DNA of 35,650 bases, from the NCBI GenBank assembly GCA_937958685.1, contig CALGNF010000017.1, positions 1-35,650 on the forward strand, written 5' to 3'. Positions 2,444 to 34,768 of the stretch are shown here, one piece after another. Both the position numbers and the translations under genes were made by a program. This DNA comes from an uncultured Caryophanales bacterium. GTDB taxonomy: Bacteria; Bacillota_I; Bacilli_A; Izemoplasmatales; Hujiaoplasmataceae. The notes under the pieces were generated by a model, which had not been told where the DNA came from, did not search any database, and saw only the letters and a list, made by a program, of their open reading frames with translations. Position 1 is the first letter of the stretch. Each line of letters opens with the position of its first letter.

Positions 2444-2453
2444 GAGGATGTTC

Positions 2454-4813: not shown

Positions 4814-4830
4814 GATCGGAGACTTGAGCA

Positions 4831-5751: not shown

Positions 5752-5752
5752 G

Positions 5753-17143: not shown

Positions 17144-19666
17144 ATGAAGAAAAAACTTGCGATCCTGATCCTTTCCACCCTGCTTTTGTTCATCGCCACC
17201 CCGCTCTTGCTCCCCAAGGTGAGCGCGGAGATCCCGGCGCGGGAATACGGCGCGGATTTGGCCTTCGGCCGGCGCGTCGTCTCGACCGCGAACACCGATG
17301 AACATCAGAACATCCGCGCCGTGGACGGCAATCCCCTAACCCGTTATGCCGCCCAAGCGGACCATAATGCCTACTTTTACGTCGATCTCGGTTCCATCGA
17401 AAAGATCGGTAAAGTCGTGATCGACTTCGAGGCCGCCTATGCCGGCGAATATCAGCTCCAACTCTCAAACGATGCTTTGACCTGGACGACGGTCGCCACG
17501 ATCCAAAACACCGGACCGACCGTCGATGAGATCGAATTCCCCGAGTTCCTGGAAGCCCAGTTCGTGCGCTTCCAAGGCGTCGAACGCGGCACCGATTGGG
17601 GCTATTCGTTCTGGAGTTTCGAGGTCTACGGTCCGGCGAGCCTGGCGAAGGGCGCCGATGTCGTCTTTGTCTCCTCAAACGAGAACGAAACCGTCCATAA
17701 CCGCCAACACATGACCGATGGCGATGCCTCGACCCGCTGGGCATCGAGCGTCGCCGACAACCAATACGTGATCATCGACCTCCTGGATGCCAAAACCTTC
17801 GACATGATCAAGATCCGCTGGGAAGTCTCCTTCGCCAGGCGCTTCGCGATCTACGGATTCACAGGCACGCCTAGCGGCGCTTATCCCGAAAGAAGCGCTA
17901 CTGGCTGGTATCTGCTCCAAAAGTCCGATGTCGGTCTCGGCGAAGTCGACACTTTCCAACTTGACGGCTACCAGACCACCCGGTTCATCAAGATCGAGCT
18001 GATCCAAAGGGAAACGAGCGAAGAAACGAAGAAGACCGGCCGCCTGCCGTGGGAATCAACCTTCTCGATCTATGAATTCGAGCTCTACGACTGGGCTTCG
18101 ATCCACGCCGCCAAACTCGGGAGCGTGATGGAATTCTCCAAGGCCGCGCCCGCTTGGACGGCGATGGCCAACATCACCTTGAATCCATCCGGACTGCTTC
18201 TCGCTCCGATCGGCTATCCGATCGCGGCCGACGGCGTCGTCACCAACCTGGCAAGCATCGCTGATGGTGACATCCCCGGTTTCGAGTCCTACGCGGTTTA
18301 CAATCCCGCGATCATCTACGACAACGAACGGGAGCTGTTCCACATGATCTACCGCGCCGAATTACCCGACAACTTCCGCTATTATTTCCAGAACCATGAC
18401 CTTGGCCGCTATAAATACGATCTTGGCCACATGTCCTCACTCGCTTATGCGTATTCATATGATGGCATCAACTGGGAACGGGGCGTCGACAATCCGATCG
18501 CCTGGGCTACCTCCACCGACGAACAGGGTGGCGGGCTGGAAGACCCGCGGATGTTCAAGATTGAAAACGATCCCAACCGCGGCGGGCTTACGACCTACTA
18601 CATCACCTATACGATGTATGACAACACGATGACCCGCGAGGGCATCATCTACACCCATGACTTCATCACTTTCCATAAGGAAGGTCGCCTCGCCCCCGAC
18701 TATCCCCACAACAACAAATCCGGAACCTTCCTCACCGATCCCGAAGGCAATGCCGTGATGATCAACGATCCCCGTCCCGGCAAGACGGGCAAGGTCTACA
18801 TCATCTACATGAAAGATGGCGGCTACACCCGCATCGGCTTCACAACGGATGTCCTCCGCATCGAAGCAGAAGACATCATCGACATCGATTCTACCGGCTT
18901 CGGCGCCAACGACATCGAAGCCCTGACCAAGGGCAACGAATCGTGCATGGCCCTCACCAACATCTACGGACCCGACGACGAGGATATCTATCTGATGTAT
19001 GGCGGCGGCATCTTGAGCAATCCCGAGATCAAGAACCAGCAACCCAACTCCACCGATTGGTTCTACGCGCTCGGCGTCCTCAAGACGACAAAGACGAACC
19101 CCTTCGAACTCACGCACTTCACCTATGATCTCAGCGAACCGACGATGTATCCCACCAACACCAACAAGATCGACTACGGCCTCTTCAACAAGTGCATGTT
19201 CGCCGACTCGATGATCCGCCACGACAACCAGTGGTATCTCTACTACGGCGCCGGCGACATGTATGTGGGCCTGGCGCTTTCCCGGGGCGATTTCGGCGCC
19301 CCGGCGGCCACTTACGAAGTCGATGGCGCGACCCTGATCGCCAGGACCAAAGCCCTGAACAAGACCTATGGCACCGACAAGCGCGCCCGCCAGGTCGAAT
19401 TCGTCGCCGAAATCCATGCCCTTGACGGCACGCTCCTCGACATCGCGGTCAACGGCTATGCGATCGAGCACTTCACCCACTCCCTCACCGGCAAGTATTC
19501 CACCGGGGACCAGATCACCGTCAGCCTTGATCCATCGCTTGTTGAAGGCATCACGGACAACTACTACGTCGTTGCTTACATCCGCGATTTCGCGACCAAG
19601 GAAGTCTTGAACAATCCGTCCGCCTACCTCGTCGTCACGCCCGTCGTGACCAAGACGGGAAAGTAG
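17144..19666 (+). CDS. Secreted GH130-type enzyme with two discoidin (F5/8 type C, CBM32-like) domains
   Basis: This 840-residue protein has a classical signal peptide (KKKLAILILSTLLLFIATPLLL, cleavage likely after VSA near residue 28) and no lipobox, so it is secreted rather than lipid-anchored. Two discoidin-like domains follow (about 35-165 and 168-320) with DGNPLTRYAAQ and DGDASTRWASS, the usual asparagine/aspartate-rich W loops, and FVRFQ / FIKIEL edge strands. From about 365 to 715 is a GH130-like propeller with YNPAIIYD, GLEDPRMFKIE (the EDPR acid motif) and YLYYGAGDMYVGLA. The last 120 residues form an Ig-like domain. AGGAG precedes the ATG. It probably cleaves terminal mannosides outside the cell. 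Confidence 0.87.
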   Translation: MKKKLAILILSTLLLFIATPLLLPKVSAEIPAREYGADLAFGRRVVSTANTDEHQNIRAVDGNPLTRYAAQADHNAYFYVDLGSIEKIGKVVIDFEAAYAGEYQLQLSNDALTWTTVATIQNTGPTVDEIEFPEFLEAQFVRFQGVERGTDWGYSFWSFEVYGPASLAKGADVVFVSSNENETVHNRQHMTDGDASTRWASSVADNQYVIIDLLDAKTFDMIKIRWEVSFARRFAIYGFTGTPSGAYPERSATGWYLLQKSDVGLGEVDTFQLDGYQTTRFIKIELIQRETSEETKKTGRLPWESTFSIYEFELYDWASIHAAKLGSVMEFSKAAPAWTAMANITLNPSGLLLAPIGYPIAADGVVTNLASIADGDIPGFESYAVYNPAIIYDNERELFHMIYRAELPDNFRYYFQNHDLGRYKYDLGHMSSLAYAYSYDGINWERGVDNPIAWATSTDEQGGGLEDPRMFKIENDPNRGGLTTYYITYTMYDNTMTREGIIYTHDFITFHKEGRLAPDYPHNNKSGTFLTDPEGNAVMINDPRPGKTGKVYIIYMKDGGYTRIGFTTDVLRIEAEDIIDIDSTGFGANDIEALTKGNESCMALTNIYGPDDEDIYLMYGGGILSNPEIKNQQPNSTDWFYALGVLKTTKTNPFELTHFTYDLSEPTMYPTNTNKIDYGLFNKCMFADSMIRHDNQWYLYYGAGDMYVGLALSRGDFGAPAATYEVDGATLIARTKALNKTYGTDKRARQVEFVAEIHALDGTLLDIAVNGYAIEHFTHSLTGKYSTGDQITVSLDPSLVEGITDNYYVVAYIRDFATKEVLNNPSAYLVVTPVVTKTGK

Positions 19667-21860: not shown

Positions 21861-21986
21861 GTGACCGGGACACTGGGACACAAACGTATCACTATCATTG
21901 CCAACAGGATATTGCAAAAGGATCACAGCGTTTTTACTCGCATTCATTGCTTTGCACCATCGATTTGCGAAGGAGGAAGAATATGA
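21861..21986 (+). CDS. Possible 41-residue leader ORF coupled to the first small peptide gene
   Basis: This short frame starts at GTG, ten bases after the AGGAGGTG at 21843-21850. It ends with TGA overlapping the next ATG, a layout typical of translational coupling. The encoded peptide is basic, with two cysteines (CFAPSICEGGRI at the end). It resembles nothing I recognise and has no counterpart upstream of the second peptide gene. It may be a chance frame: the last codons are shaped by the ribosome site of the following gene, because GGA GGA AGA reads as Gly-Gly-Arg. Confidence 0.25.
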   Translation: MTGTLGHKRITIIANRILQKDHSVFTRIHCFAPSICEGGRI

Positions 21987-22114
21987 AAGAAACAACCAAG
22001 AAACAAGAATACGAACGGCCGACGCTCGAGGTCATCGAATTCGATCTCGAGGACAGCATCGCGACCAGCATGGATTTCGGCCCGTCGACGATTTGCGGTG
22101 AGCAGACATGGTAA
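21983..22114 (+). CDS. Small peptide gene 1: predicted RiPP-type precursor (43 aa)
   Basis: This 43-codon gene has a strong AGGAGG site (21971-21976) six bases before the ATG. The peptide has a charged N-terminal part with the leader-like block YERPTLEVIEFDLED and a C-terminal part SIATSMDFGPSTICGEQTW with a single Cys. A near copy lies at 28585-28719. The layout (a charged leader with a hydrophobic VIEF patch that a PqqD-type domain could bind, then a small Ser/Thr/Gly/Cys-rich tail) is that of a ribosomally made, post-translationally modified peptide precursor. The next gene overlaps it by seven bases (ATG at 22108 inside ACATGGTAA), so the two are translated together. What the mature peptide does is unknown. 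Confidence 0.8.
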   Translation: MKETTKKQEYERPTLEVIEFDLEDSIATSMDFGPSTICGEQTW

Positions 22115-24525
22115 GCCTGAAAAAGGCGTTAGCCTCGTTTTTGGTTTTGACCTTGTCGCTTGCCTTCGTCGCCATCTTCACCAAAGGCTCGCAAGTAATG
22201 GCTGGCGGCACCCAGCAGACCCAGGAAAGCGTGGCCTTGACCCTCACGACCTACTTTGACTCGGAGAACACGATCGTCACCGAGTTCCCAATCCCCGAAG
22301 AAGGCAGCAAGTGGTTCAACGAATCGACGAACACGCTGTATACCTACACATCGGGGGATTGGGATGCCGGGACCGTTTTGCCTACTACCCAACCAGAATC
22401 GCCGGAAGAAGGCACGCGCTGGTTCAATGAGAGCACGAACAAACTCTTTACCTATACTAGCGGTTCTTGGGATGCGGGCGTGGTTCTGCCGACCGCCGAA
22501 CCCGATCTCAAGTACGGCCAGAAACTCTCGCTCAACAGCACGCTCGCGGACTATAGCGGCTATACCTTCCTGTTTTGGGAAGTCAACGGGTCGATCAGGT
22601 ATTATGCGATCGACTACGTGTTCCAATTGACCAAGACCAACGACATCAAGGCCGTCTTCAGTCCGTCTGATGAACATGCCGTGACTTTCGTGGATGCCAA
22701 CAGCAGGATCCTCAAGGTCGAATATGTCGCATACGAGGGTTCCGCAACACCGCCGGAGACACTGCCTTCAAAACCCGGATTTTCAACCAATGGCTGGAGT
22801 CTGGGATATACGGGAGTGACCGATGATGTCGTGACCGTCCTGCAGTACAGTGCCACCAACACCACCGAATACACAGTGTCGGTGGTAAACGGCACGATCA
22901 ACGACGCCGCCTCCGATGATATTACCTACAACACGGTCGCGACCGTTGTGGCAGCGGCCCCTGGTGAGGGAATGTATTTCCACCATTGGGAAATGGAGGA
23001 TCTGACTGTCAGTTACGAGTCGACCTATTCCTTCACCGTCGTCGAGGCCGTCACTTTGACAGCTTATTATGCGACATCCGCACCAGCGGATCTGCCAAGG
23101 GTCGCGATCACCAACGACCTCGAACTGAGAGCGGGACACAAGACCTTCATCGGCCAGTTCTATCTGCCATCAGGCTATACGCTGATCGAATATGGCATCG
23201 TCTCGACAGCCAGCGGCACGGCGCTCGTGGATCTTGGCTCGACATCGGTGATCAGAAACCAGGCCACCAAATACAATCCCACCACCAACGAGTTCGTCCT
23301 CAGTCTTGCGGACGCCAATTCGGAGAGTTATCGCGGTTACATGATTTGTGAAGATGACGAGGAAGAGATCGTGACCGTCTATAGCGAATCCGCATACAAC
23401 GTGTATAATGGCGGCTTTGAGATGGGTAACCTGACGGGATGGAACTACTATCGGATCTGGAAAGATGAAAGCGGAATGGATGCGTTTGATTCCTCGCTGG
23501 TCCATGGCGGAACCTATTTCAGCAGCTATCCCTATGGTCGAGATGGGAGTTACCAACTGGGGATTACCAGTGGATCAATCACTTGGGACCAAGCATCGGA
23601 AAGAATGGGACACCTGAGGTCTTCTGACTTCCTTCTGGGCGGCTCCGGCTGGATCAGTTTCAAACTTGGCGGCGGTAAAACAGCCTCGACTGCCTATGTT
23701 TCCGTAAGAAAGACGTCTGACAACACAGAAGTGGCCCGTTTTGGCAACGCCAACTATAACAACACCACGATCGCAACTGCTCAGTATGGCAGTACGATAA
23801 CCAATGCCGAGGCGTTTCTGTTCCAGTATTACTTCAATTTAGGAAGCGTTGGCAGCTTGGGCGAAAGTTACTATTTTGTCCTGACTGACTCGGCAGCCTA
23901 CGACTGGTGCATCTTGTCAGCGGACAGTTTCATCACCTATTACCCGTCGGCGCCTACTCCTGGCGAGAACCAATCCGCTACAAATATCGTTCCCGTGATC
24001 AACACCACATCAGCCGACAATACAATTAAAAACGGCAGTTTCGATACGGATCTCTCCAATTGGACGGTCGTTGATAACAACTGGTATTACTCTTCCAGCA
24101 ATTATGCGAAGAGTAATTCATCTGGCGATGGCGGCCTTGGCGTCATCAGATCGAGCGCCTTCTATGTGACGACAAACAAATATTTGGAGTTTGACTGGGC
24201 TGGCGGTCTGAAATACGATAAGCAGATCTATGTCTCCATCAAAGAGGAAGGCACGAACATCGAGGTTTTGCGTTACGTTAGAAGAGACAATCTGTCGGGT
24301 AAGGAGAGCGAGAGCTTTGACAATCATATGCTTGATCTTTCTTCTCTCGACACCTCGAAAATGTACTATCTTGAGTATGTGGACAACCGTTCGGGTGGTT
24401 GGGGTATCAGTTACATCGACAATATCGAGTTGGTATCCCAAACAAGATGGAACGAAGTCACCTCGGGCGATAGGGCTGTGCAGGTCATTACCTCGACTCC
24501 AAGCTACATTTACGAGAAACCATAA
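22108..24525 (+). CDS. Large exported protein paired with peptide 1: InlB-like N-module plus paired beta-sandwich modules
   Basis: This 805-residue protein has an N-terminal hydrophobic export signal (KKALASFLVLTLSLAFVAIF) and no lipobox. Residues of about 40-430 form a module shared with the genes at 28734 and 30533. Marks include FLFWEVNGS, AVTFVDANSRILKVEYV, LPSKPGF, NTVATVVA, HHWEM, GQFYLPSGYTLIEYGIVS and KYNPTTNEFVLSL; parts resemble InlB-type B repeats. A duplicated 36-residue unit is inserted at residues 63-134. The C-terminus is the module A (FEMGNLTGW, LRSSDFLLGGSGWISFKLGGGK, DSFITYYPSAP) and module B (NGSFDTDLSNWTV, YLEYVDNRSGGWGISYID) pair of the glycan-locus lipoproteins. Its start lies inside the peptide 1 gene; a GGTGAG at 22097-22102 may help. 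A terminator follows. Confidence 0.85.
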   Translation: MVSLKKALASFLVLTLSLAFVAIFTKGSQVMAGGTQQTQESVALTLTTYFDSENTIVTEFPIPEEGSKWFNESTNTLYTYTSGDWDAGTVLPTTQPESPEEGTRWFNESTNKLFTYTSGSWDAGVVLPTAEPDLKYGQKLSLNSTLADYSGYTFLFWEVNGSIRYYAIDYVFQLTKTNDIKAVFSPSDEHAVTFVDANSRILKVEYVAYEGSATPPETLPSKPGFSTNGWSLGYTGVTDDVVTVLQYSATNTTEYTVSVVNGTINDAASDDITYNTVATVVAAAPGEGMYFHHWEMEDLTVSYESTYSFTVVEAVTLTAYYATSAPADLPRVAITNDLELRAGHKTFIGQFYLPSGYTLIEYGIVSTASGTALVDLGSTSVIRNQATKYNPTTNEFVLSLADANSESYRGYMICEDDEEEIVTVYSESAYNVYNGGFEMGNLTGWNYYRIWKDESGMDAFDSSLVHGGTYFSSYPYGRDGSYQLGITSGSITWDQASERMGHLRSSDFLLGGSGWISFKLGGGKTASTAYVSVRKTSDNTEVARFGNANYNNTTIATAQYGSTITNAEAFLFQYYFNLGSVGSLGESYYFVLTDSAAYDWCILSADSFITYYPSAPTPGENQSATNIVPVINTTSADNTIKNGSFDTDLSNWTVVDNNWYYSSSNYAKSNSSGDGGLGVIRSSAFYVTTNKYLEFDWAGGLKYDKQIYVSIKEEGTNIEVLRYVRRDNLSGKESESFDNHMLDLSSLDTSKMYYLEYVDNRSGGWGISYIDNIELVSQTRWNEVTSGDRAVQVITSTPSYIYEKP
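22294..22509 (+). repeat. Tandem duplication of a 36-codon unit
   Basis: Two adjacent 108-base units (22294-22401 and 22402-22509) encode PEEG-x-x-WFNESTN-x-L-x-TYTSG-x-WDAG-x-VLPT twice with few changes. The unit resembles the W-x-N/D-x-x-T-N-x-L-Y-x-Y...W motif found in some phage tail and surface proteins. The related proteins at 28734 and 30533 lack it at the equivalent place, so it looks like an insertion followed by duplication. Confidence 0.75.
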
Positions 24526-24554
24526 TAACCATTGATGCTTTCTTGTTTTGTGAG

Positions 24555-24584
24555 AACCCTGATGAGAACCGTCATCGGGGTTTT
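24555..24584 (+). terminator. Rho-independent terminator after the peptide 1 / surface protein unit
   Basis: An 11-base stem AACCCTGATGA pairs with TCATCGGGGTT (one G-T pair) around a six-base loop and runs into TTTT. It lies 30 bases after the stop of the 805-residue protein and before the promoter of the maturation operon. Confidence 0.8.
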
Positions 24585-24636
24585 CGCATTCCTGGGACAT
24601 GATTTGCACATGATATGTATGAGTTACCTCTCAATA

Positions 24637-24645
24637 TGGTAAAAT
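24637..24645 (+). promoter_or_regulatory. Extended -10 promoter of the maturation operon
   Basis: TGGTAAAAT (TG-n-TAAAAT) lies in an AT-rich stretch just after a terminator and before the radical SAM gene. The expected transcription start is about 24651-24653, which almost coincides with the in-frame GTG at 24654. No good -35 box is visible. TATAGT at 24645-24650 is a competing -10 candidate. Confidence 0.5.
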
Positions 24646-24653
24646 ATAGTCAG

Positions 24654-25667
24654 GTGATCATTCTGAGTAGTTATCGCGAACTTAAAGCAAAAATCATCAA
24701 ACTGGGTGCCGTTCAGCGGATTCCGGTCCTGGGTGAATTCGAGCTCACCGCCAGATGCAACTTCCTCTGCCCGATGTGCTATGTCAGGGACAATGCGGTG
24801 AAAAACGAATTATCCACCGGGCAATGGCTGGCCATTTTCAATGAGGCGGTCAACGAAGGGTTGGTCTATGCGCTCCTTACCGGTGGCGAGCCATTGCTGA
24901 GGGCGGATTTTTCCCAACTCTACGAGCACCTCTATGACTATGGCGTGCGGATCAGCGTCTATACCAATGGCTATCAATTGACTGAAGAACATCTCGAGAC
25001 CTTTCGCAAACGCCCCCCGGAACTGATCGCCATCACGCTTTATGGTGGAAGCGATGCCACTTATACGACAGTCACTGGTATGCATGATGGTTTCACCAAA
25101 GTCAGGGGAACCATCAAGAAACTCAAAGCAAACAACCTTAATGTCGCCTGCAGGGTGATCCCGATTCCCGAGGTGTACAAAGACCTTGACGCCATTCTTG
25201 GATTCGTCAAGGAATCCCGGCTTGCGCTCGGATACTTCCTCTACCTTGCCCCATCACTGAATAAGGATTATCAAGGACGGCTATCGCCACCAGCTCTGGC
25301 CGATTTCGAAGCGAGGATCGTCGCTGCCCTACCGAAAACAAAACGCTCTGATGCCGCCGATTTCGACACTTCTACAACCTGCGCCGCCTTGAGAAGCGGC
25401 TATGCCGTAAATCACAAAGGATACATGCAGCCGTGCACGCTCATGAATCACCCAAGGAAGAAACTGGAGTTTGGAAAGCTGTTGGAAACCTTCCGCGAGC
25501 TTGGCGACAAATGGCTAAACATGGCTGCTTCCCAGGACTGCATGAGCTGCTCCATCCGCTCATCCTGCATTCCTTGTCCGGCCCGAAGACACCTTGAAGG
25601 CGATCATGCCAAGTGCGCGCCCTATCTGCGCGCCTTTGCTAAAGAGAGGAAGAAGACCGATGACTGA
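24654..25667 (+). CDS. Radical SAM/SPASM peptide-modifying enzyme
   Basis: This is a radical S-adenosylmethionine enzyme. Its CxxxCxxC cluster motif reads CNFLCPMCY, preceded by FELTAR as in the peptide-maturase subgroup. The GGEPLLRADF segment binds SAM. The C-terminal third is a SPASM-like auxiliary cluster domain with TTCAALRSGY, MQPCTLMNH, CMSCSIRSSCIPCPAR and a last Cys near the end. Such enzymes make thioether, C-C or epimerised links in ribosomal peptides. The frame is open from ATG 24615, but the promoter overlaps that start, so a start at GTG 24654 (337 residues, possibly leaderless) is preferred; ATG 24636 is another option. It overlaps the next gene by eight bases. The likely substrates are the two small peptides flanking the operon. 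Confidence 0.88.
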   Translation: MIILSSYRELKAKIIKLGAVQRIPVLGEFELTARCNFLCPMCYVRDNAVKNELSTGQWLAIFNEAVNEGLVYALLTGGEPLLRADFSQLYEHLYDYGVRISVYTNGYQLTEEHLETFRKRPPELIAITLYGGSDATYTTVTGMHDGFTKVRGTIKKLKANNLNVACRVIPIPEVYKDLDAILGFVKESRLALGYFLYLAPSLNKDYQGRLSPPALADFEARIVAALPKTKRSDAADFDTSTTCAALRSGYAVNHKGYMQPCTLMNHPRKKLEFGKLLETFRELGDKWLNMAASQDCMSCSIRSSCIPCPARRHLEGDHAKCAPYLRAFAKERKKTDD

Positions 25668-26511
25668 GGCCTACCGGATCGGCAACGTCATCCTGGAATT
25701 CACCCATCAGTTCGATGAGTATTTTTCCAGTCGGATTCCCGCCTACAAAACCACCGAGAAACCTGAATACCGGATGCGGGTCTTGGTCGAGGACAGACTG
25801 GACATACCCACCAAAAATATCAAATTCTCCTATCGGGATCGAACGATTCTTGAAGACGAATCCGGCGGGTGCATCGTCAAGCACAACGAACAAGGGGAAA
25901 TCACCCACCTCATCGATTACCGCCATGACTATCGGGAAATCACCATCCGGCTATCACGTTCCCTGGGAGCGCACCTGCCGGAAGTCGAATACCTGATCAC
26001 CGGCATGATGTTCTTCGAGATCGCGATCAAGAACGGGCTGATCCCGATCCATGCGTCCGCGATCGGCTATGACAAGGAGGCGATCCTCTTTTCCGGACCG
26101 TCCCGGGCCGGAAAGTCGACCCAGGCCGAGCTGTGGAAAACCAACCTCGAGGATGTCGTCTTCATCAACGACGACAAACCCCTGCTCTACCAGACTGATG
26201 CGGGACTCTTCGTCACCGGCTCGCCCTGGTCCGGCAAAACCCCGAAGAATGAGAACATCGCCCTCAAAGTCAAGGCGATCGTCTTCATCGAGCAAGCCCA
26301 GGTGAACAACCTGATCGCCCTGACGGTTTATGACAAGATCACGAATTTCCTGAGAAATGTCTATCGTCCCCGTGAGGAAGCGAAGCTGGACAATGTTCTC
26401 GATCTGATCGAGAAGCTGATCAAGGATCTTCCGGTCTACCGGTTCTACTGCACCAAGGACAACGAGGCGTTCGCCTATCTCTATCAGGCACTCTATAGAA
26501 GGGACTACTGA
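25660..26511 (+). CDS. HPr-kinase-like (HprK-related) P-loop kinase
   Basis: This 283-residue protein has a Walker A loop GPSRAGKST (residues 146-154) within ILFSGPSRAGKSTQAELW, and a VVFINDDKPLLY segment that matches the HprK catalytic NDD/SDD region. The LIPIHASAIGY lead-in is typical of HprK-related proteins in peptide-maturation clusters. Known relatives in lasso-peptide clusters of the paeninodin type phosphorylate a serine of the precursor, so phosphorylation of one of the peptides' Ser/Thr residues is a reasonable inference. The ATG at 25660 follows AGGAAG and overlaps the radical SAM stop by eight bases. An upstream ATG at 25594 lies inside the previous gene and has no ribosome site. 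Confidence 0.82.
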   Translation: MTEAYRIGNVILEFTHQFDEYFSSRIPAYKTTEKPEYRMRVLVEDRLDIPTKNIKFSYRDRTILEDESGGCIVKHNEQGEITHLIDYRHDYREITIRLSRSLGAHLPEVEYLITGMMFFEIAIKNGLIPIHASAIGYDKEAILFSGPSRAGKSTQAELWKTNLEDVVFINDDKPLLYQTDAGLFVTGSPWSGKTPKNENIALKVKAIVFIEQAQVNNLIALTVYDKITNFLRNVYRPREEAKLDNVLDLIEKLIKDLPVYRFYCTKDNEAFAYLYQALYRRDY

Positions 26512-26513
26512 AC

Positions 26514-26783
26514 ATGAAACGCAAACCGAACTACATCCTCCGCGAAGTCGCCGGCGAGAACATCGTCATCCCCGTCGATGAAGCCGCCATCAATTTCAAC
26601 GGCATCATGACCCTGAACTCAACCGGAAAGTTCCTTTGGAATCTCCTTGGGGAATCCACGACTCCTACTGAACTCATCGCAAGACTCGAGGAAAGCTATG
26701 ATGTCGACATGGAAACGGCAACCAGGGATGTTACCGATTTTCTCGCAAAACTAAGACATAACAAAATCTTGGAAGATGAATAA
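26514..26783 (+). CDS. PqqD-like peptide-binding (RRE) protein
   Basis: This 89-residue protein fits the PqqD family, whose winged-helix fold (RiPP recognition element) binds leader peptides and presents them to maturation enzymes. The sequence starts YILREVAGENIVIPV, then has the family core INFNGIMTLNSTGKFLWNLL and a C-terminal helix-loop part ELIARLEESYDVD...DVTDFLAKLRHNKIL. It begins three bases after the kinase stop and overlaps the next start by eight bases. Free-standing PqqD proteins next to radical SAM/SPASM enzymes are a strong mark of RiPP biosynthesis. Here the likely partner sequence is the EVIEF block of the two small peptides. Confidence 0.88.
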   Translation: MKRKPNYILREVAGENIVIPVDEAAINFNGIMTLNSTGKFLWNLLGESTTPTELIARLEESYDVDMETATRDVTDFLAKLRHNKILEDE

Positions 26784-27225
26784 AACGGCAGCCGAAAACA
26801 ACGGGATCCTCCCGCTGATCGAAGAGCAGCTGCTGTTGGGGAAACAGGTCACCTTCAAAGTCAAGGGTGGCAGCATGTTCCCGTTTTTGTTATCGGATGA
26901 AACCGATGTCACCCTGGAAAAACCAAACCGTCAATCTGCTAAATACGACATCATCCTCTATAAAACGAAAGATGGAAAATACGTCTTGCACCGGATCATC
27001 AAGATCAGGCAAGAAATGCTGATCCTCATGGGCGATGCCCTGAAGAGAAAAGAACAAGTTCTCCAGGAACAAGTCATCGGCGTCGTCACCACTATCAAGA
27101 ATGGAAATAGCACGACAAGTGCCACAAATCCAAGGTACCTAAGAAGAGTCAAACTTTGGGTGGGTTTGCGGTTTCTTAGACGCGGACTCCTGTTTGTCAT
27201 GCGACATTTCCGGAGGACGACCTGA
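26776..27225 (+). CDS. S24/S26-type peptidase-like protein (Ser-His arrangement)
   Basis: This 149-residue protein has the signal-peptidase/LexA-like fold pattern: VKGGSMFPFL with nucleophile Ser33, YDIILYKTKDGKYVLHRII with His72 where bacterial type I signal peptidases carry the catalytic lysine, and MGDAL (Asp87). A Ser-His dyad is the arrangement of the ER/archaeal signal peptidases. No N-terminal membrane anchor is seen; the C-terminus has a hydrophobic-basic stretch (LWVGLRFLRRGLLFVMRHF) that may bind the membrane. In this operon it may remove the leader of the modified peptide, which is inference. It overlaps the PqqD gene by eight bases and the next gene by one (TGATG). Confidence 0.8.
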   Translation: MNKTAAENNGILPLIEEQLLLGKQVTFKVKGGSMFPFLLSDETDVTLEKPNRQSAKYDIILYKTKDGKYVLHRIIKIRQEMLILMGDALKRKEQVLQEQVIGVVTTIKNGNSTTSATNPRYLRRVKLWVGLRFLRRGLLFVMRHFRRTT

Positions 27226-28415
27226 TGGAAAGACATATCGAGGAACTATTCGCGATCACCCGCTTCGCTTTGGCCAAGAAGCCGTATCTTGAACCGATAA
27301 CTGATTTCAAAAAACTCTTCACAGCCGCCAGGGAAAACGGCCTTTCCGGCCTGTTCTATCCCGTTCTCAAAGACAATGATTCCGTCGATGATGAGGAAAA
27401 ACTTCTACTCAAGGAATACTACCTTTATCAGACCAAGGATATCGCGCAGACGAAGACGGCACAACTCGTTTCCAAACTGTTTTCCGACATCCAGGCCGAC
27501 CATGCGTTCCTCAAGGGCATGGCGATCAAAAAATACTACCCTGAAACCTACATGCGTTCCATGGGCGACATCGACATCCTGATCCAGCCGGAAGCCCTGG
27601 CCGATTCCAAGAGCATCCTCCAGAAGCACGGGTTCAAACTCCATAGCGAAGGCTCGACCCACGATGTCTATTTCAAGGGCAAGGGCCTGATGCTTGAAGT
27701 CCATCCCGGGGTCGACCATCATCTTGATCCAAAACACGTCAGCGCCCTCGGCAGCGTCTTTGCGGACGCGATCAGTCTGGGTGACCATCAATATGAGCTG
27801 GCTCCGGAGAAGCAATTGCTCTATCTCCTGGCCCACCTGCACAAGCACTTCCTGTCCTCCGGCATCGGCTTGCGGCAAGTGCTGGATATCGGCGTGTTCC
27901 TCACAGCCAAGGAAAAGGAGATGGATATAGGTAAATTGCACTCACTCCTTGACCATGCGGGATTGACGAGATTCGCCAACTCGATGATTGCCTTCAACAA
28001 CAGAGCCGTTGGGTTCACCGCCGGCAAGGCGATCCTTGGCGACTTTGTCATAGACGAAAACCTCTTTGAAGATACGGCGGCATTCGTCATCAGCGCCGGC
28101 ATCCATGGAACCGCCGATGACTTCAACAAAAGCGTTCCGGCGCTCACCAAGCATTCGCTCAAAGCCAACAAGACCCGCGGCAGCAAACGCCGCTACCTCC
28201 TTCAAGTGCTCTTTCCCAAGCGGGATGATCTGATGGCTGGGGAGAAGTATCTCAAGAAACATGGATGGTTGTTGCCGTATGCCTGGGTGAAACGCTGGTT
28301 CCGTCTGGCATTCAAGAAAACGAAGAGAAGCATCTACAAACTGAAATCACTGAATGTTGAGAAAGAAGTTATAGAAGAACAAGTATCTCTATACCAACGA
28401 TTGGGGATCAAATGA
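27225..28415 (+). CDS. Nucleotidyltransferase family protein (NTP_transf_5-like)
   Basis: This 396-residue protein has the nucleotidyltransferase core LKGMAIKKYYPETYMRSMGDIDILI, with the G-D-I-D metal-binding pair near residue 114, followed by MLEVHPGVDHHLDPK and the helical APEKQLLYLLAHLHKHFL segment common in the NTP_transf_5 (PF14907) family. Members often accompany HprK-like and PqqD proteins in peptide clusters and are proposed to attach a nucleotide or another group to the precursor, but the chemistry is not settled. The ATG overlaps the previous stop as TGATG, after CGGAGGA. It is the last gene of the five-gene operon; a terminator follows within three bases. Confidence 0.84.
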   Translation: MERHIEELFAITRFALAKKPYLEPITDFKKLFTAARENGLSGLFYPVLKDNDSVDDEEKLLLKEYYLYQTKDIAQTKTAQLVSKLFSDIQADHAFLKGMAIKKYYPETYMRSMGDIDILIQPEALADSKSILQKHGFKLHSEGSTHDVYFKGKGLMLEVHPGVDHHLDPKHVSALGSVFADAISLGDHQYELAPEKQLLYLLAHLHKHFLSSGIGLRQVLDIGVFLTAKEKEMDIGKLHSLLDHAGLTRFANSMIAFNNRAVGFTAGKAILGDFVIDENLFEDTAAFVISAGIHGTADDFNKSVPALTKHSLKANKTRGSKRRYLLQVLFPKRDDLMAGEKYLKKHGWLLPYAWVKRWFRLAFKKTKRSIYKLKSLNVEKEVIEEQVSLYQRLGIK

Positions 28416-28440
28416 AGCAGCCTACGGGCTGTTTTTCTTT
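28416..28440 (+). terminator. Rho-independent terminator of the maturation operon
   Basis: CAGCC (28418-28422) pairs with GGCTG (28427-28431) around a TACG loop and is followed by TTTTTCTTT. It starts right behind the nucleotidyltransferase stop codon. Confidence 0.8.
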
Positions 28441-28529
28441 ATAACGGACCAATATAAGTAATCAAATTTATCATTATGAACGTTATTGAGAAAATATGAA
28501 AATATGTGTATGTTTTAATAACATATAAT

Positions 28530-28537
28530 GTTATAAT
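28530..28537 (+). promoter_or_regulatory. Extended -10 promoter of the peptide 2 unit
   Basis: The stretch 28441-28584 is far more AT-rich than its surroundings. It contains TATAATGTTATAAT at 28524-28537; the second box reads TG-T-TATAAT (28529-28537), an extended -10. A start of transcription near 28544 would leave about 40 bases before the peptide ATG. No strong -35 element is visible. Confidence 0.6.
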
Positions 28538-28584
28538 TTATCAAAATGTGTCAACAAGCCATTGTATCGGGGGATATATCGAGA

Positions 28585-28719
28585 ATGCATAAAAAACAAC
28601 ATGAGAAACTCGTTTATGAGCAACCAGTTATCGAAGTGATTGAGTTCACTCTCGAAGACAGCATCGCCACAAGCATGGACTTTGGGCCGTCGACAATTTG
28701 CGGCGAACAAACCTTCTAA
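28585..28719 (+). CDS. Small peptide gene 2: predicted RiPP-type precursor (44 aa)
   Basis: This 44-codon gene encodes a near copy of the peptide at 21983. Its N-terminal part is diverged (MHKKQHEKLVYEQPVIEVIEFT). The C-terminal part SIATSMDFGPSTICGEQTF is identical to peptide 1 except for the final residue (Phe here, Trp there). Over the 21 consecutive identical residues the two genes differ in 11 codons, all synonymous, so the peptide sequence is under selection and this is a real gene. The ribosome site is weaker (GGGGGA about eleven bases upstream). It is followed after 14 bases by a second large exported protein gene, as at the first copy. Confidence 0.85.
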   Translation: MHKKQHEKLVYEQPVIEVIEFTLEDSIATSMDFGPSTICGEQTF

Positions 28720-28733
28720 AGGAGATGGCGAAA

Positions 28734-30341
28734 ATGAAACGACTATTGTTTTCTGTTGTCATCACGCTTATCGGTGTTTTCTTTATCGGGATATCTCAGT
28801 TTGAAGTCAGTGCCGCATCACCGATCGGTCAAACATTTGATGTGACCATCAAATCCTATTTTGGTGACGACAATGATCTAAGTGATTCGTTGGCAAATCA
28901 GGCTTATGGTAGTAAAATTTCTGTTACTCCACCCACTGATGAAGGGTCATCAAACTATGAGTTTGCATTTTGGATTGTTAATGGGACCGTATATCAGTAT
29001 CCGGTTGATCATCAGTTCGTAGTAACCGAAGATTTGGAAATCCACGCAATCTTCAGACCAACAGATAAGTATGCTGTAGTCTTTCTGGATGCAAATGGAG
29101 ATCGGCTGAAAGTGGAATTCGTTACATCAGGCAATGATGCGACACCACCAGTCAGTCTACCAGCTAAATCGGGGATGGAGCATGCATCTTCAAATTGGTC
29201 CGCTTCATACACGAACATAACACAAAATACAGCAGTTATACTTCAGTATCAGTTGCTTGATGATGAAACAACGTACACTGTCACTGTTACAAACGGTAGC
29301 AGCGATGAAGCATCTTATGTCCTAAATGATGTTGCCACACTTACAAAAGGAACAGCTCCAGAAGGCAAAGAATTCAGCCATTGGTCGATTGGGACAAGAA
29401 TTGTCTCTTATGACGAAGCCTTTAGGGTTACCATTTTTGATGACGCTTATTATACTGCATGGTTCTTGGATGAAGCACTCACACCAGAACCACTAGTATA
29501 CATTTCTGATCCCCTAACTTTATCCGACGGTAAAGTATCCTTCAAGGGACAGTTTTATTTGCCTGAAGGATATGAGTTAATCGAATATGGCCTAATTACT
29601 TCTAATGATTACGAATATGAACTTGATTTTGATGATGTTGATGGTGTAAACGTTATCAAAAGGATGGGTCAGAAGTACAATCCCCATACCAACGAATTCC
29701 TGATGACTTTTGGAGCATCAAGCATTAAGTCCGTAATAGGTTATCTGATAGTCAAGTATGGGGAAACCATTTCGATCGAATACTCTGATATCGCTTTAAC
29801 AAACAATGATCATCTTGTAATTTTTGAAGTTTATGGTGGCGGAGGGAATTCTGGCGCAACATATACTCATGATTTCATTACTTTATATAATCCAACTAGC
29901 AAACCTATAAGTGTTAATGGATATTCTGTCCAATATGCTTCTGCAACAGGAAGCACATGGCAAGTCACAGTTTTGTCAGGCGATGTGGGGCCATATGGGT
30001 TCTATCTTATACAACAAGCTAAGGGATCGGGAGGATCCGTTTCTCTGCCAACTCCGGAAGCTATTGGTACAATTGCCATGTCTGCTACCGCGGGAAAAGT
30101 GGCCCTTAGAACTAACACGACCGCTTTGTCAGGAACCAATCCTATGCCTGATGTGACCATACTTGATTTTGTTGGTTTCGGTACCACAGCAAACGCATAT
30201 GAAGGAACTGGCCCAACTGCTGCCCCATCTAATACGAACTCTGTGGCAAGAAAATCATGGAATTTCGATACAAACAACAATAGCTCTGACTTCGCTGCAG
30301 GCGCACCAACTCCAAAAAACAGCAGTAGCCATAAGTGGTAG
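28734..30341 (+). CDS. Large exported protein paired with peptide 2: InlB-like N-module plus lamin-tail domain
   Basis: This 535-residue secreted protein has a signal peptide (KRLLFSVVITLIGVFFIGI, likely cleavage after VSA). Residues of about 30-355 form the same N-module as the protein at 22108 (FAFWIVNGTV, AVVFLDANGDRLKVEFV, HWSIGTRIVSY, GQFYLPEGYELIEYGLITS, KYNPHTNEFLMTF). The C-terminal part is a lamin-tail domain (FEVYGGGGNSGATYTHDFI, LYNPTSKPISVNGYSVQYA, LDFVGFGTTANAYEG). Lamin-tail domains often occur in secreted bacterial nucleases and surface proteins; here no catalytic domain follows. I chose ATG 28734, eleven bases after AAAGGAG; ATG 28725 touches that site, and an in-frame TTG lies inside the peptide gene. 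The gene is clearly AT-rich (for example 18 G+C in 60 bases at 29581-29640). Confidence 0.84.
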   Translation: MKRLLFSVVITLIGVFFIGISQFEVSAASPIGQTFDVTIKSYFGDDNDLSDSLANQAYGSKISVTPPTDEGSSNYEFAFWIVNGTVYQYPVDHQFVVTEDLEIHAIFRPTDKYAVVFLDANGDRLKVEFVTSGNDATPPVSLPAKSGMEHASSNWSASYTNITQNTAVILQYQLLDDETTYTVTVTNGSSDEASYVLNDVATLTKGTAPEGKEFSHWSIGTRIVSYDEAFRVTIFDDAYYTAWFLDEALTPEPLVYISDPLTLSDGKVSFKGQFYLPEGYELIEYGLITSNDYEYELDFDDVDGVNVIKRMGQKYNPHTNEFLMTFGASSIKSVIGYLIVKYGETISIEYSDIALTNNDHLVIFEVYGGGGNSGATYTHDFITLYNPTSKPISVNGYSVQYASATGSTWQVTVLSGDVGPYGFYLIQQAKGSGGSVSLPTPEAIGTIAMSATAGKVALRTNTTALSGTNPMPDVTILDFVGFGTTANAYEGTGPTAAPSNTNSVARKSWNFDTNNNSSDFAAGAPTPKNSSSHKW

Positions 30342-30532: not shown

Positions 30533-33500
30533 GTGAAACATAAATATCTATTTCAAACATCATTGGTTATTTTAATTTTATCGCTCTCTCTCTCAATTAT
30601 CCATGCATCTTCATCATACGAAGTAACGGTGAGCGTTACTTCGTATTTTGACCATACTAATATTATTACGAACGAAATCAATGATTTACCATATGGATCC
30701 AAAGTAACACTCTCTGATAGGCTTGAATATGAAAGCGGGTATGATTTTGTTTTTTGGGTTATCAATGGGACTGTCAGAATAAATATTTCCATCAACCATG
30801 ATTTTGTTATTCTTAATGATATGGAATTGATTGGTGTTTTTCGACCTTTTGACAAGTTTGCTACGGTATTCATGGATGCAAACGGGAAGATGCTTGATAT
30901 CCAGTATATATCTCCTGGAAGTAATGCTAGCGATCCAGAAATTGCGTTGCCGAGCAAGCCTGGTTATGTTGTTGCCAGTCCCGCTTGGGATAAGTCACTG
31001 AATAACATACAAGATAATACTGTCTTCATTCTTCAATATGAGAAAACTACATCAGATTCTTTCACTGTCTCAGTAACCAATGGAATTGGCAGTGGATCAT
31101 ATTCGTTCAACTCATATGCAACGGTTGTTGCTGATGAGCCGAAGGAAGGTTATCATTTCCAATACTGGAAATCCGGCAACGACATCGTGTCTTTGCAGCC
31201 AACTTATACCTTCACAGTTCTAGATGATATTTTTTTGGAGGCGGTCTATTCAGATACAGAATATCCGAGTATGCCATATGTATCGATCACTGATAATCTT
31301 GGTCTTCGAGAGGGATACATGTCCTATAAAGGCCAATTCTTCGTCCCTGACGGATATGAACTTATCGAACATGGTCTGATCACCTCTTCTAACGATGAAG
31401 TGATTGATCTTGGTTCTTCAGGTATCACAAGATACCAAAGCAACAAATACAATGGCCAAACCAACGAATTCCTGATAAGCATCCTCTCTGACACGATCGC
31501 CTCTGTCAGAGCCTATTTGGTTGTGAAAGACGACAAGGGGAACCTGAAAAACTTCTACAATGAACTTGTGGAAGGAGAAATTTCGGGAATATATGCTGAA
31601 GACCTGTTTTTCTCCTATTACATTGAAGGATCGAGTTTTAACAAGGCTGTTGCGATATTCAATGGAACAGGTGGCTCTGTCGATCTGAGCCAATATTCTG
31701 TGAAGTTGTACAGCAATGGCGCATCTTCAGCATCAGCTACAATGACTTTATCAGGCTCACTTGCGCACGGTGATGTCTATGTTATCGCACATGGAAGCGC
31801 AGTTTCAGATATTCTCACCGTCGCCGATGCCACGAACAATTCGGTGATCAATTTCAACGGTGACGATGCCCTCGAATTGGTCAAATCTGAAGCAGTTATT
31901 GACAGTATTGGCCAAGTGGGGTTTGATCCGGGAACAGAATGGGGATCTGGTCTGACCTCGACAGCTGACAATACACTGAAACGAAAAAGTTCGGTTACTT
32001 CAGGCAGAACAGCCTCTTCATCAGCCTTTGATCCTTCATTGGAATGGGACGGCTATGCCCAAGATCATTACACCAGTCTCAACACCCATACGATGACAGA
32101 CATGGGGCCAGAAGGCGGCTCATCCGCATCGGTATCGGCGATCGAGGCATTCATCCCGGATGCGGATTACGAACAAGGCGAGTCGTTGAATCTTGGTAAT
32201 AGTTACTTGAAAGCATATTATTCTGATGGAACCGCTTCGTTTGTCACGATAACCCCTGAGATGATCTCGGGTTTTTCCTCCGCCATCATCGGTGACTTCT
32301 CTCTCACAGTCACATATGGCGGGAAGACAACTTCGCTATTCTATGAGGTTGTCGCGCCGACATCATCACATTCCCTGATGATTTATGAGGCCTACGGCGG
32401 TGGCGGGAACTCGGGCGCGACTTACAACTATGATTATGTGATTCTTTACAATGGTTCTGCGACAGACATCAACATAAGCGGCTACTCCCTCCAGTATGCG
32501 GCGGCCACGTCTTCCACCTGGAGCGTCTTATCCCTAAGCGGCACCATTTATGCACACACATATTATATTGTCAGGCTTGCATCCAATAACCCAGCTATTG
32601 GCGCAGCATTGCCCATCACGCCCAACATTACGGGCAGTCTGAATCTCTCTGCCACCTCCGGCAAAATCGCGCTTGTGGGCAATACGCAAGGCATCACGGG
32701 ATCAAGCGATCCCGATGTTGTCGATTTCCTTGGCTACGGCACAGCGAACGATGCCGAGGGCACTGCTGTATCTGCATTAAGTAATACGACTTCTGCTAAA
32801 AGAACCAGTTTCATCGATAGCGACGACAACGCCGCTGATTTTGCGGTTGCTACCCCTTCCCTGCAATACGTGGCCGACAGCCTGGAAGTCGTCTCGATCA
32901 GCGCCATCAACCTCTCACGCTATTATGAGGTATCCGATCCATTGACGATCGGAAACGCCAAGGTCGTCCTCAACTACAACAACGGTTCCCAAAAACAGAT
33001 CGAGCTTACTTCGGGGATGGTCTCCGGCTTCGCAACGACCACACTTGGAACCTATGAGATGACGATCACCTATGAAACTTACACATGTACATACGAATAT
33101 TACGTGATCGATTATGGAGCGCTTGACGAGGTCGAAGTCCACTACATCGATCTCGGTTATCTGGGCGGCGGTCCCGGCGAGGCGGCCTTGATCAAGGTCG
33201 GCGGGATCGAGATCCTGGTCGATGCCGGCGAAACCAGCAGCGCGAGCGTCGATGCCCTGCTGGCTTTCCTGGAAGGAATCGTCACCGACGGCACGATCGA
33301 ATACGTCATCGCCACCCATCAGGATGCCGACCACATCGGTGGGATGGCGGATGTCTACGAGGCTTACATCATCGAAACGACGATCCTCTATTCGACATCG
33401 CCGTCGATCGCCACCGGCTTGCGCAACGATTATGAAGCAATCGTCGCGCTTGAAGAATGCGAAGTCTTCCATGTCTATGACATCGTCACCGGCATAGACA

Positions 33501-34768
33501 ACACCATGACTGTCGCGACCGGCGTCGAACTCGTCTTCTACGACACCGATTACCTGCAGGCGGCCGATGCCAACGCCTCCAGCATCGTGTTCGTCCTCGA
33601 GGCCTTCAATACCCGGATCCTTTTCAACGGCGATGCCGAAGGCAATCAGGAAAGCGTCTATGCCTCCCTTGTCGGCGATGTCGACATCTTCAAGCTCGGC
33701 CATCACGGCGCCGCAGCCGGAACGACCACTTATCTGCTCGAGACGATCACCCCCGAAGTCGGGATTGTGACCAACGGCGACTATCTGGGAAACGCCTACT
33801 CCCATCCCACCTATGCCGCACTTTCCCGCATCTATAGCTATTCCGATCTGGTGCCCGTTTACGCCGTCACCGGCGGAAACGGTTCCGGATCCGACCGGAT
33901 GATGGAGCGCAACGGTGATATCTCGGTCGCCATCAATGCTTCGGGTTATTCGATAACCTCGCAAGCCTATGGAACCAATCCTTTGGAACTCTCGAATACT
34001 GCCTACTGGAACGATCCGGCCAATCCGTATGCCGCTAGCATCTATTATTACGCGCCGGCAACCGGCATCACCGATGATGCGAATCTCAAGGCCGCGCTCA
34101 ACGACATCATCTCCGGCCATGGCTATCTATCATATGATGCGCTGTGGAACGCACTCGCGGTCACGGATGCCGATCCCGACATCGCCGGCAATGTGCTCCT
34201 GTTTTATACCAACAGAAGCCAGGACGCCGACGATCATGGCGGAAATCCCGACCAATGGAACCGCGAGCATGTCTGGGCGAACTCCCACGGGATCGACGAT
34301 GCTTATCCCGGATATTCCGATCTCCACCACATCCGGGCGACCGATGTCACCGTGAACAACGCCCGGGGCGACCTCGATTTTGGCAATGTCACGCCCCATG
34401 ACGGCTCGACCCTGGTTTCAACCGCCTATGGTTATGGCGACGTTTCCACCTATAACTACAAGTCATCCTCCTATTTCGAACCGCGCGACGAGATCAAGGG
34501 CGATGTCGCCCGGATGCTTTTCTATATGGCGACCCGCTATGAGGGCGAAGGCGGCGAACCCAATCTGGAGCTGGTGGATGGGACGACATCTTCCTCATCC
34601 AGCAACCTTGGCGATCTCGCCACCTTGCTGTTATGGCACGGGCAAGATCCCGTCGATGAGTGCGAACTTGCGCGCAACGAACTGGTTTACGGGATCCAGG
34701 GCAACCGAAATCCCTTTATCGACAACCCCGAATATGTTATAATCGTCTTCGGAGGTTCACCATCATGA
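30533..34768 (+). CDS. Giant secreted nuclease: shared N-module, two lamin-tail domains, Ig-like domains, metallo-beta-lactamase domain, endonuclease I domain
   Basis: This 1411-residue protein starts at GTG (GGAG six bases upstream) with a signal peptide (LVILILSLSLSIIHAS). The order is: shared N-module (about 25-350); lamin-tail domain 1 (about 353-520; SYYIEGSSFNKAVAIFNGTG, INFNGDDALELV); Ig-like Big_3 type (535-610); lamin-tail domain 2 (610-775; YEAYGGGGNSGATYNYD); a second Ig-like domain (785-860); a ComEC-type metallo-beta-lactamase domain (863-1130; ATHQDADHIGG, FNGDAEGN, LGHHGAAAG); and an endonuclease I (EndA/NucM type) domain (1165-1411; WNREHVWANSHG, DLHHIRATDVTVNNARGDLDFG). It should cut extracellular DNA. 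The stop overlaps the next gene by four bases (ATGA). Confidence 0.9.
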   Translation: MKHKYLFQTSLVILILSLSLSIIHASSSYEVTVSVTSYFDHTNIITNEINDLPYGSKVTLSDRLEYESGYDFVFWVINGTVRINISINHDFVILNDMELIGVFRPFDKFATVFMDANGKMLDIQYISPGSNASDPEIALPSKPGYVVASPAWDKSLNNIQDNTVFILQYEKTTSDSFTVSVTNGIGSGSYSFNSYATVVADEPKEGYHFQYWKSGNDIVSLQPTYTFTVLDDIFLEAVYSDTEYPSMPYVSITDNLGLREGYMSYKGQFFVPDGYELIEHGLITSSNDEVIDLGSSGITRYQSNKYNGQTNEFLISILSDTIASVRAYLVVKDDKGNLKNFYNELVEGEISGIYAEDLFFSYYIEGSSFNKAVAIFNGTGGSVDLSQYSVKLYSNGASSASATMTLSGSLAHGDVYVIAHGSAVSDILTVADATNNSVINFNGDDALELVKSEAVIDSIGQVGFDPGTEWGSGLTSTADNTLKRKSSVTSGRTASSSAFDPSLEWDGYAQDHYTSLNTHTMTDMGPEGGSSASVSAIEAFIPDADYEQGESLNLGNSYLKAYYSDGTASFVTITPEMISGFSSAIIGDFSLTVTYGGKTTSLFYEVVAPTSSHSLMIYEAYGGGGNSGATYNYDYVILYNGSATDINISGYSLQYAAATSSTWSVLSLSGTIYAHTYYIVRLASNNPAIGAALPITPNITGSLNLSATSGKIALVGNTQGITGSSDPDVVDFLGYGTANDAEGTAVSALSNTTSAKRTSFIDSDDNAADFAVATPSLQYVADSLEVVSISAINLSRYYEVSDPLTIGNAKVVLNYNNGSQKQIELTSGMVSGFATTTLGTYEMTITYETYTCTYEYYVIDYGALDEVEVHYIDLGYLGGGPGEAALIKVGGIEILVDAGETSSASVDALLAFLEGIVTDGTIEYVIATHQDADHIGGMADVYEAYIIETTILYSTSPSIATGLRNDYEAIVALEECEVFHVYDIVTGIDNTMTVATGVELVFYDTDYLQAADANASSIVFVLEAFNTRILFNGDAEGNQESVYASLVGDVDIFKLGHHGAAAGTTTYLLETITPEVGIVTNGDYLGNAYSHPTYAALSRIYSYSDLVPVYAVTGGNGSGSDRMMERNGDISVAINASGYSITSQAYGTNPLELSNTAYWNDPANPYAASIYYYAPATGITDDANLKAALNDIISGHGYLSYDALWNALAVTDADPDIAGNVLLFYTNRSQDADDHGGNPDQWNREHVWANSHGIDDAYPGYSDLHHIRATDVTVNNARGDLDFGNVTPHDGSTLVSTAYGYGDVSTYNYKSSSYFEPRDEIKGDVARMLFYMATRYEGEGGEPNLELVDGTTSSSSSNLGDLATLLLWHGQDPVDECELARNELVYGIQGNRNPFIDNPEYVIIVFGGSPS
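34735..34743 (+). promoter_or_regulatory. Extended -10 promoter inside the end of the nuclease gene
   Basis: TG-T-TATAAT (34735-34743) is an extended -10 box about 22 bases before the ATG of the next lipoprotein gene. The predicted transcription start near 34750 lies right at the CGGAGG ribosome site (34750-34755), so the lipoprotein may be transcribed independently of the nuclease. Confidence 0.5.

Follow-up and report, generated by a model that had tools for sequence, protein, structure and literature searches.

Among described biosynthetic systems, the closest to the locus considered here are the linear polyphosphorylated peptides (LPPs), a family of ribosomally synthesized and post-translationally modified peptides (RiPPs) that was published in 2026 and that the main text of that paper describes for the lpp cluster of Paenibacillus alginolyticus (PMC13381572). 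The cluster comprises genes for a kinase (LppK), a RiPP recognition element (RRE; LppB), a SipW-like peptidase (LppS), a nucleoside triphosphate (NTP) transferase (LppN), an exporter (LppD), and the precursor LppA, which becomes polyphosphorylated at Ser3 of its A-Q-S core. LPP precursors follow the motif YxxPxVLxHQxIxFETxxS, and the same text states that the role of LPPs, as well as that of paeninodins, is unknown. Here we consider a related locus in a contig of an uncultured bacterium of the Izemoplasmatales (GCA_937958685.1, CALGNF010000017.1; 35,650 nucleotides, in the following the window), in which two small peptide genes flank an operon of five genes headed by a radical S-adenosylmethionine (SAM) enzyme. 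Our interpretation, to which we assign a probability of roughly 0.7, is that the window encodes an LPP-type RiPP system extended by a SPASM-type radical SAM enzyme, and that its product works together with a co-translated secreted protein in the wall-less Izemoplasmatales.

Gene content compared with LPP and lasso peptide clusters

All genes discussed are located on the forward strand. The operon starts with a radical SAM/SPASM-type enzyme (24615..25667, alternative GTG start at 24654; PF04055). In an alignment of 27 sequences, the motif CxxxCxxC and seven C-terminal cysteines are invariant, the latter with a spacing that we take to be SPASM-like. A profile comparison with solved structures places the sactisynthase SkfB nearest (E 1.8e-21), and the closest named relative derives from a Candidatus Izemoplasmatales metagenome-assembled genome (MAG, 57% identity); a cultured Izemoplasma is also known, strain zrk13 (PMC8397711). 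The second gene (25660..26511) encodes an HprK-like kinase, the counterpart of LppK, as judged from a weak match to the ScmC family below its cut-off, from motifs, and from the fold: P-loop and N-x-D residues are conserved across 24 sequences, and a model built with 24 sequences (predicted local distance difference test, pLDDT, 94.5) retrieves PEPCK structures first in a Foldseek search, with HprK/P from rank 30. The third gene (26514..26783; PF05402) codes for a PqqD protein, that is, a discrete RRE corresponding to LppB. Its residues N35, D72 and F76 are invariant in 8 of 8 sequences and align with the YxxP-binding residues N33, D70 and F74 of LppB, as read from the printed alignment; PbaB1, the RRE of paeninodin, differs there at the first and second of these three positions. 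The fourth gene (26776..27225) encodes a SipW-type leader peptidase, the counterpart of LppS, with a weak signal-peptidase match below cut-off. All 20 sequences compared have its Ser33, His72 and Asp87; the model (pLDDT 90.8, 20 sequences) gives Foldseek matches to SpsB, LexA and SipA, representing folds of signal peptidases and of LexA, but these are weak, with a best E of 0.004 and none that reaches 0.001. The last gene (27225..28415) encodes a nucleotidyltransferase (PF14907, NTP_transf_5, E 8e-45), by family the counterpart of LppN, with D115, D117 and E158 conserved in 6 sequences.

The five genes named in an earlier, sequence-only reading of the window are confirmed; for the kinase and the peptidase the family matches are weak, and the assignment draws on fold and motifs as well. 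That reading also placed the system near the accessory enzymes of paeninodin-type clusters, which agrees with the HprK-like kinase and nucleotidyltransferase present in both (PMC13381572). Its statement that the locus matches no nameable class is not supported, as four of the five enzymes constitute the LPP core set according to the main text of the same paper. The likeness extends to the YxxP leader, the A-x-S start of the core and the lack of a cyclase; the window differs from the P. alginolyticus cluster by the additional radical SAM/SPASM-type enzyme together with a core Cys, by a short conserved core, and by the adjacent secreted protein. The main text of PMC13381572 never uses the term radical SAM. 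A further difference concerns export: the lpp cluster contains an MsbA-like exporter, whereas a Pfam scan of 22 window proteins (all except a fragment at 1-528) detects no ABC (ATP binding cassette) exporter, and likewise no asparagine-synthetase-like lasso cyclase, both as stated earlier from the letters. As a rule the missing exporter does not stand, since several relatives carry a divergent MsbA-type exporter beside the operon.

Three other known systems share part of these traits. Paeninodin-type lasso clusters combine an RRE and a [Y/W]xxP leader with an HprK-like kinase and a nucleotidyltransferase (PMC13381572, main text), but no lasso cyclase is found in the window, and the Asn and Asp replaced in PbaB1 are retained by the RRE of the window. 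The SynChlorMet cassette provides the best NCBIfam matches of the radical SAM enzyme (ScmE) and of the kinase (ScmC), yet the test for ScmC/ScmD/ScmE does not place the window there, as the scores lie far under the curated cut-offs (76 of 400, 27 of 125 and 14 of 100 bits). SkfB and other sactipeptide maturases share the SPASM-type enzyme and a Cys-containing core, but the window has a companion kinase, RRE, peptidase and nucleotidyltransferase, and one core Cys only. Searches of the open-access literature yield no paper on SynChlorMet and none that names five of six elements of the system; one paper, on a Pelobacter genome, contains both HprK and radical SAM. Within the reach of these searches, the system is undescribed.

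Two precursor genes and their secreted partners

Precursor peptide A (21983..22114, 43 aa) consists of a YxxP leader and the predicted core ATSMDFGPSTICGEQTW; precursor peptide B (28585..28719, 44 aa) has the same predicted core except for the last residue (F for W). The coordinates and lengths of the two small genes, 43 and 44 codons at 21983 and 28585, agree with the sequence-only reading, and so does, in our codon-by-codon comparison, the run of 21 identical residues (LEDSIATSMDFGPSTICGEQT) in which 11 of the 21 codons differ synonymously. Along their full length the two genes agree at 32 of 44 positions (stop codon counted); where a residue is shared but its codon is not, 18 cases in all, the change is always silent and confined to the third position, which argues that selection keeps the peptide residues. 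A protein search with peptide A returns 8 matches, two of which are the window's own peptides; the other six all keep the tail SIATSMDFGPSTICGEQT while their leaders vary, so that the likeness noticed earlier goes beyond chance. What had been missed is that both genes should, as far as their sequences tell, give nearly the same product. On our best reading, the two precursor genes supply almost the same product in two settings, each of them next to a secreted partner.

A profile search with 36 precursors gives 144 matches. Among the 120 of them that are listed, including the window's two, Tyr0, Pro3, Phe10, Ile16, Ala17 and Ser19 are invariant, so that A-x-S (A-T-S in the window) follows the YxxP leader; exactly one Cys after Ala17 is present in 113 of the 120 and none in 7. 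This conservation is overstated to some degree, because the matches were chosen by profile and shared words. Pfam and NCBIfam assign no family to the window's two precursors, ten related precursors yield a single weak match there to an unrelated zinc-finger family, and a search of the PDB with the precursor profile gives no match.

Directly behind each peptide gene lies one for a large secreted protein, and the partners share an N-terminal module, an arrangement absent from the sequence-only reading. Partner A (22108..24525, 805 aa) has a signal-peptide-like start and the shared module, and its start codon overlaps the end of precursor A (gap -7 nt); partner B (28725..30341) consists of the module and a lamin tail domain and starts 5 nt after precursor B. 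A third protein with the same N-terminal module (30533..34768), likewise predicted to be secreted, is not preceded by a precursor; with lamin tail, MBL and endonuclease I domains it is likely an extracellular DNase.

The arrangement recurs in relatives. We surveyed 90 genomes of the order and 395 genomes of the class, some of the latter from the order; genomic stretches are labelled L and genomes G (L001 belongs to G001, L120 to G021). A precursor is followed by a signal-peptide-like gene, judged by a simple pattern, in all 29 informative cases (2 in the window, 27 in the order; gap -8 to +14 nt), where L130 and L132, which end at the contig end, and the weak match L143 are not counted. The module is found in 28 of these 29 next genes: 19 are part of its alignment and 9 more match, the fragment L151 being the exception. 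Precursor-like matches were obtained for 41 of the 395 class genomes, and 20 stretches from 18 genomes were fetched for neighbourhood reading (weaker matches in G114, G170, G265, G345 and G351 were left out). The 22 precursor matches in these stretches from other Bacilli are followed by the module in 17 cases, by another signal-peptide-like protein in 2, and by neither in 3. The module itself occurs in 21 of 23 order genomes with precursor versus 2 of 67 others, and in 32 of 41 class genomes with precursor versus 6 of 354 others (best 5 candidates per class genome scored). The C-terminal parts of the partners vary, including lamin tail, ice-binding-like, leucine-rich repeat (LRR), immunoglobulin (Ig)-like and endonuclease I domains, and not every module protein follows a precursor, the window's third being one example.

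The short distance to the next gene would also fit short open reading frames that act as translational leader peptides and merely couple or regulate translation of the secreted protein. We regard this as very improbable: the peptides are conserved at the level of single residues with silent changes only in the shared tail, they carry an RRE-binding motif and co-occur with a modifying operon, and in many stretches a precursor follows straight after that operon. A joint function of peptide and secreted partner is, in our judgement from sequence, the best-supported new inference. More tentatively, the modified peptide might be a dedicated ligand, a cofactor or an attached group of the constant module, to which secreted domains of various kinds are joined (DNase, lamin-tail, ice-binding-like, LRR, Ig-like). 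If so, a phosphorylated RiPP would contribute to secretion or surface display in bacteria that lack a cell wall. As the precursor stands directly before one secreted family in the order and in other Bacilli, the partner can be tested directly, which offers a lead on the role of LPPs.

The radical SAM enzyme, the core cysteine and competing interpretations

In the 90 order genomes, we find the precursor in 23, the radical SAM enzyme in 17, the HprK-like kinase in 22, the nucleotidyltransferase in 21, the LppD-type exporter in 10 (E <= 1e-70, best 16 candidates per genome scored) and the secreted-protein module in 23. The radical SAM enzyme occurs in 15 of the 23 precursor genomes versus 2 of the 67 others, the HprK-like kinase in 17 versus 5, and the nucleotidyltransferase in 17 versus 4. 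These counts from 90 genomes address the case that the sequence-only reading had named against itself, peptides widespread without the five genes; its proposal of a RiPP-like system with two precursors and one shared operon is supported. Eight precursor genomes of the order lack this radical SAM enzyme; five of them (G036, G047, G071, G076, G080) also have no HprK and nucleotidyltransferase matches, and these assemblies may be incomplete.

Presence of the radical SAM enzyme coincides with the core Cys. Of 18 order genomes with a precursor plus HprK or nucleotidyltransferase, 13 have both the enzyme and a Cys, two have the enzyme without a Cys (G072, G073), three have neither (G034, G046, G085), and none has a Cys without the enzyme. 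Of the 18 class genomes, G194 and G241 have the enzyme beside a Cys-containing precursor in a different gene order (G241 has a second, Cys-less peptide farther away), and 14 have neither; G144 and G387, with unclear or broken precursors, were left out, and G007, which has the enzyme and two atypical Cys peptides, is in no table. Combined, 15 genomes have both, 2 the enzyme only, none the Cys only and 17 neither (Fisher p 1.5e-7). Counting the five possibly incomplete assemblies, which have a Cys and no operon gene found, as contrary gives p 7e-5, and p 3e-4 if G006 (enzyme present, one precursor with Cys and one without) is added. HprK was not required of the 14 class genomes without the enzyme; when sought there, it was detected in all but G120, hence in 13. 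Restricting the table to genomes with HprK or nucleotidyltransferase in the fetched stretch results in 15/2 and 0/14 (p 5e-7; with the same contrary cases, p 2e-4 and 8e-4), where the side without the enzyme consists of 3 order and 11 class genomes. The association predicts a peptide with a phosphate-based and a radical-based modification, and relatives free of the radical SAM enzyme constitute natural controls. A lanthionine formed from phospho-Ser and Cys was set aside as principal interpretation because the Ser is kept where the Cys is absent; no search for a lyase was made.

One could also suppose that radical SAM chemistry is the main reaction and the kinase accessory, as in a sactipeptide or ranthipeptide. 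The proximity to SkfB noted above and the single core Cys in 113 of the 120 listed precursors among 144 matches fit such an assignment, but several relatives combine kinase, RRE, peptidase and nucleotidyltransferase with a Cys-less precursor and have no radical SAM enzyme. The kinase branch therefore looks like the constant part, and we consider a sactipeptide or ranthipeptide unlikely. The form without radical SAM enzyme is found in L167, L169, L174 and L176, where an exporter is divergent from a row of HprK, PqqD, peptidase, nucleotidyltransferase, precursor and module; by gene content, this form is the LPP gene set plus the module.

An MsbA-type exporter adjoins the operon in these four stretches as well as in L003, L006 and L125; the window form has the radical SAM enzyme at the operon head without such an exporter alongside. 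Together with the exporter of the LPP cluster described in the main text of PMC13381572, this would suit an LPP-like peptide exported as a free signal or bacteriocin, with the secreted partner as receptor, immunity or delivery factor, or merely co-regulated. An LppD-type exporter (E <= 1e-70, best 16 candidates per genome) is not found in 12 of the 13 order genomes with radical SAM enzyme and Cys, though, and among the 18 order genomes Cys-less cores occur in 4 of 5 genomes with exporter versus 1 of 13 without. Moreover, the same core precedes different partners (two in the window, last residue aside, and two in L001, with G001 having a third copy at another site), and these partners are large and composed of several domains, with ends that vary. 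We hold a free signal or bacteriocin to be the less probable outcome, albeit one that deserves consideration.

We favour the LPP-type system with an added radical SAM enzyme, which could operate as follows. The PqqD protein would bind the YxxP leader, and the HprK-like kinase would phosphorylate the conserved Ser in the A-x-S with which the core begins. In the region of the single Cys, the core is presumably modified by the radical SAM enzyme, a thioether being the most likely result, and the phosphate may be a substrate of the nucleotidyltransferase. Removal of the leader near I/A, a cleavage site proposed by analogy with LPP, would fall to the SipW-type peptidase. Each precursor is probably co-translated with a different secreted protein of the shared module, with which the mature peptide most likely works. 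What the analysis shows directly is which genes are present, their order and adjacency, the motifs, the co-occurrence and the link between radical SAM enzyme and Cys, whereas the chemical steps, the translational coupling and the joint function are all inferred. Relative to LPPs, the new elements on our best reading are the SPASM-type radical SAM enzyme heading the operon, linked to a core Cys, and the coupling to a secreted protein.

Several observations weigh against this interpretation. The PqqD profile fits lasso RREs better (TbiB1, E 5e-8) than LppB (E 0.003), and the best NCBIfam matches of the PqqD protein are lasso chaperones, below cut-off. Compared with the LPP motif given in the main text of PMC13381572, the window leader lacks the HQ and FET residues, and its Ser follows the Tyr after 19 rather than 18 residues. 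The module is absent after one of the two G006 precursors and after both G007 precursors. G072 and G073 combine the radical SAM enzyme with a Cys-less precursor, and five assemblies have a Cys and no operon gene found. The precursor of G021 keeps its Ser, while its locus is without HprK and PqqD and no HprK is found genome-wide. Stop codons lie within the HprK frames of G027 and G031 and within the matches in G184, G412, G133 and G353. Finally, the co-occurrence counts are given without correction for kinship, and many genomes are fragmented MAGs.

Transcript boundaries, wider distribution and upstream neighbourhood

A strong hairpin between partner A and the operon (24540..24600, forward strand, z -5.4) is a likely transcript boundary, and an intrinsic-terminator-like hairpin is located at the operon end (28414..28435, forward strand). 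These positions suggest that peptide A, the operon and peptide B are on separate transcripts; terminator-like sites overall are not commoner than in shuffled sequence.

The order radical SAM, HprK, PqqD, peptidase, nucleotidyltransferase and precursor is found in nine stretches, namely the window, L001, L002, L114, L115, L116, L121, L123 and L128; L001 has precursors on both sides of the operon, as in the window. In L120 (6933-9690, G021), HprK and PqqD are absent between the radical SAM enzyme and the peptidase. In L004 (4946-6826), in a second operon of its genome, radical SAM and HprK-like domains are joined in one open frame of 627 aa, and P0116 (544 aa) has a peptidase domain (PF00717) fused ahead of the radical SAM domain.

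A scan with the radical SAM enzyme found 459 genome contigs, 80 of which were kept, and 71 of the 80 do not belong to the Izemoplasma-like group. Of these 71, 42 encode PqqD and an HprK-like protein no more than 6 kb from the radical SAM gene, 14 also the peptidase, and 5 all four, indicating that a wider group combining radical SAM enzyme and kinase exists. Where precursors outside the Izemoplasma-like group were found by motif, they often have Cys instead of Ser after the Ala (by eye). Radical SAM, PqqD, HprK-like and peptidase genes are present in L010, L018, L055, L079, L065 and L046 (Clostridia, Armatimonadota, gammaproteobacterial).

Upstream, the window contains a mannoside-type locus (545-21811). 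It encodes GH130 (2397-3497 and 17144-19666) and GH125 (14606-17134) proteins, a solute-binding protein with two permeases (3488-6634), a DUF1861 protein (6208-7575) and a metallophosphoesterase with CBM_X2 (9005-14575). Genes resembling this locus are also seen, by eye, near precursors in L001 and L125/L126.

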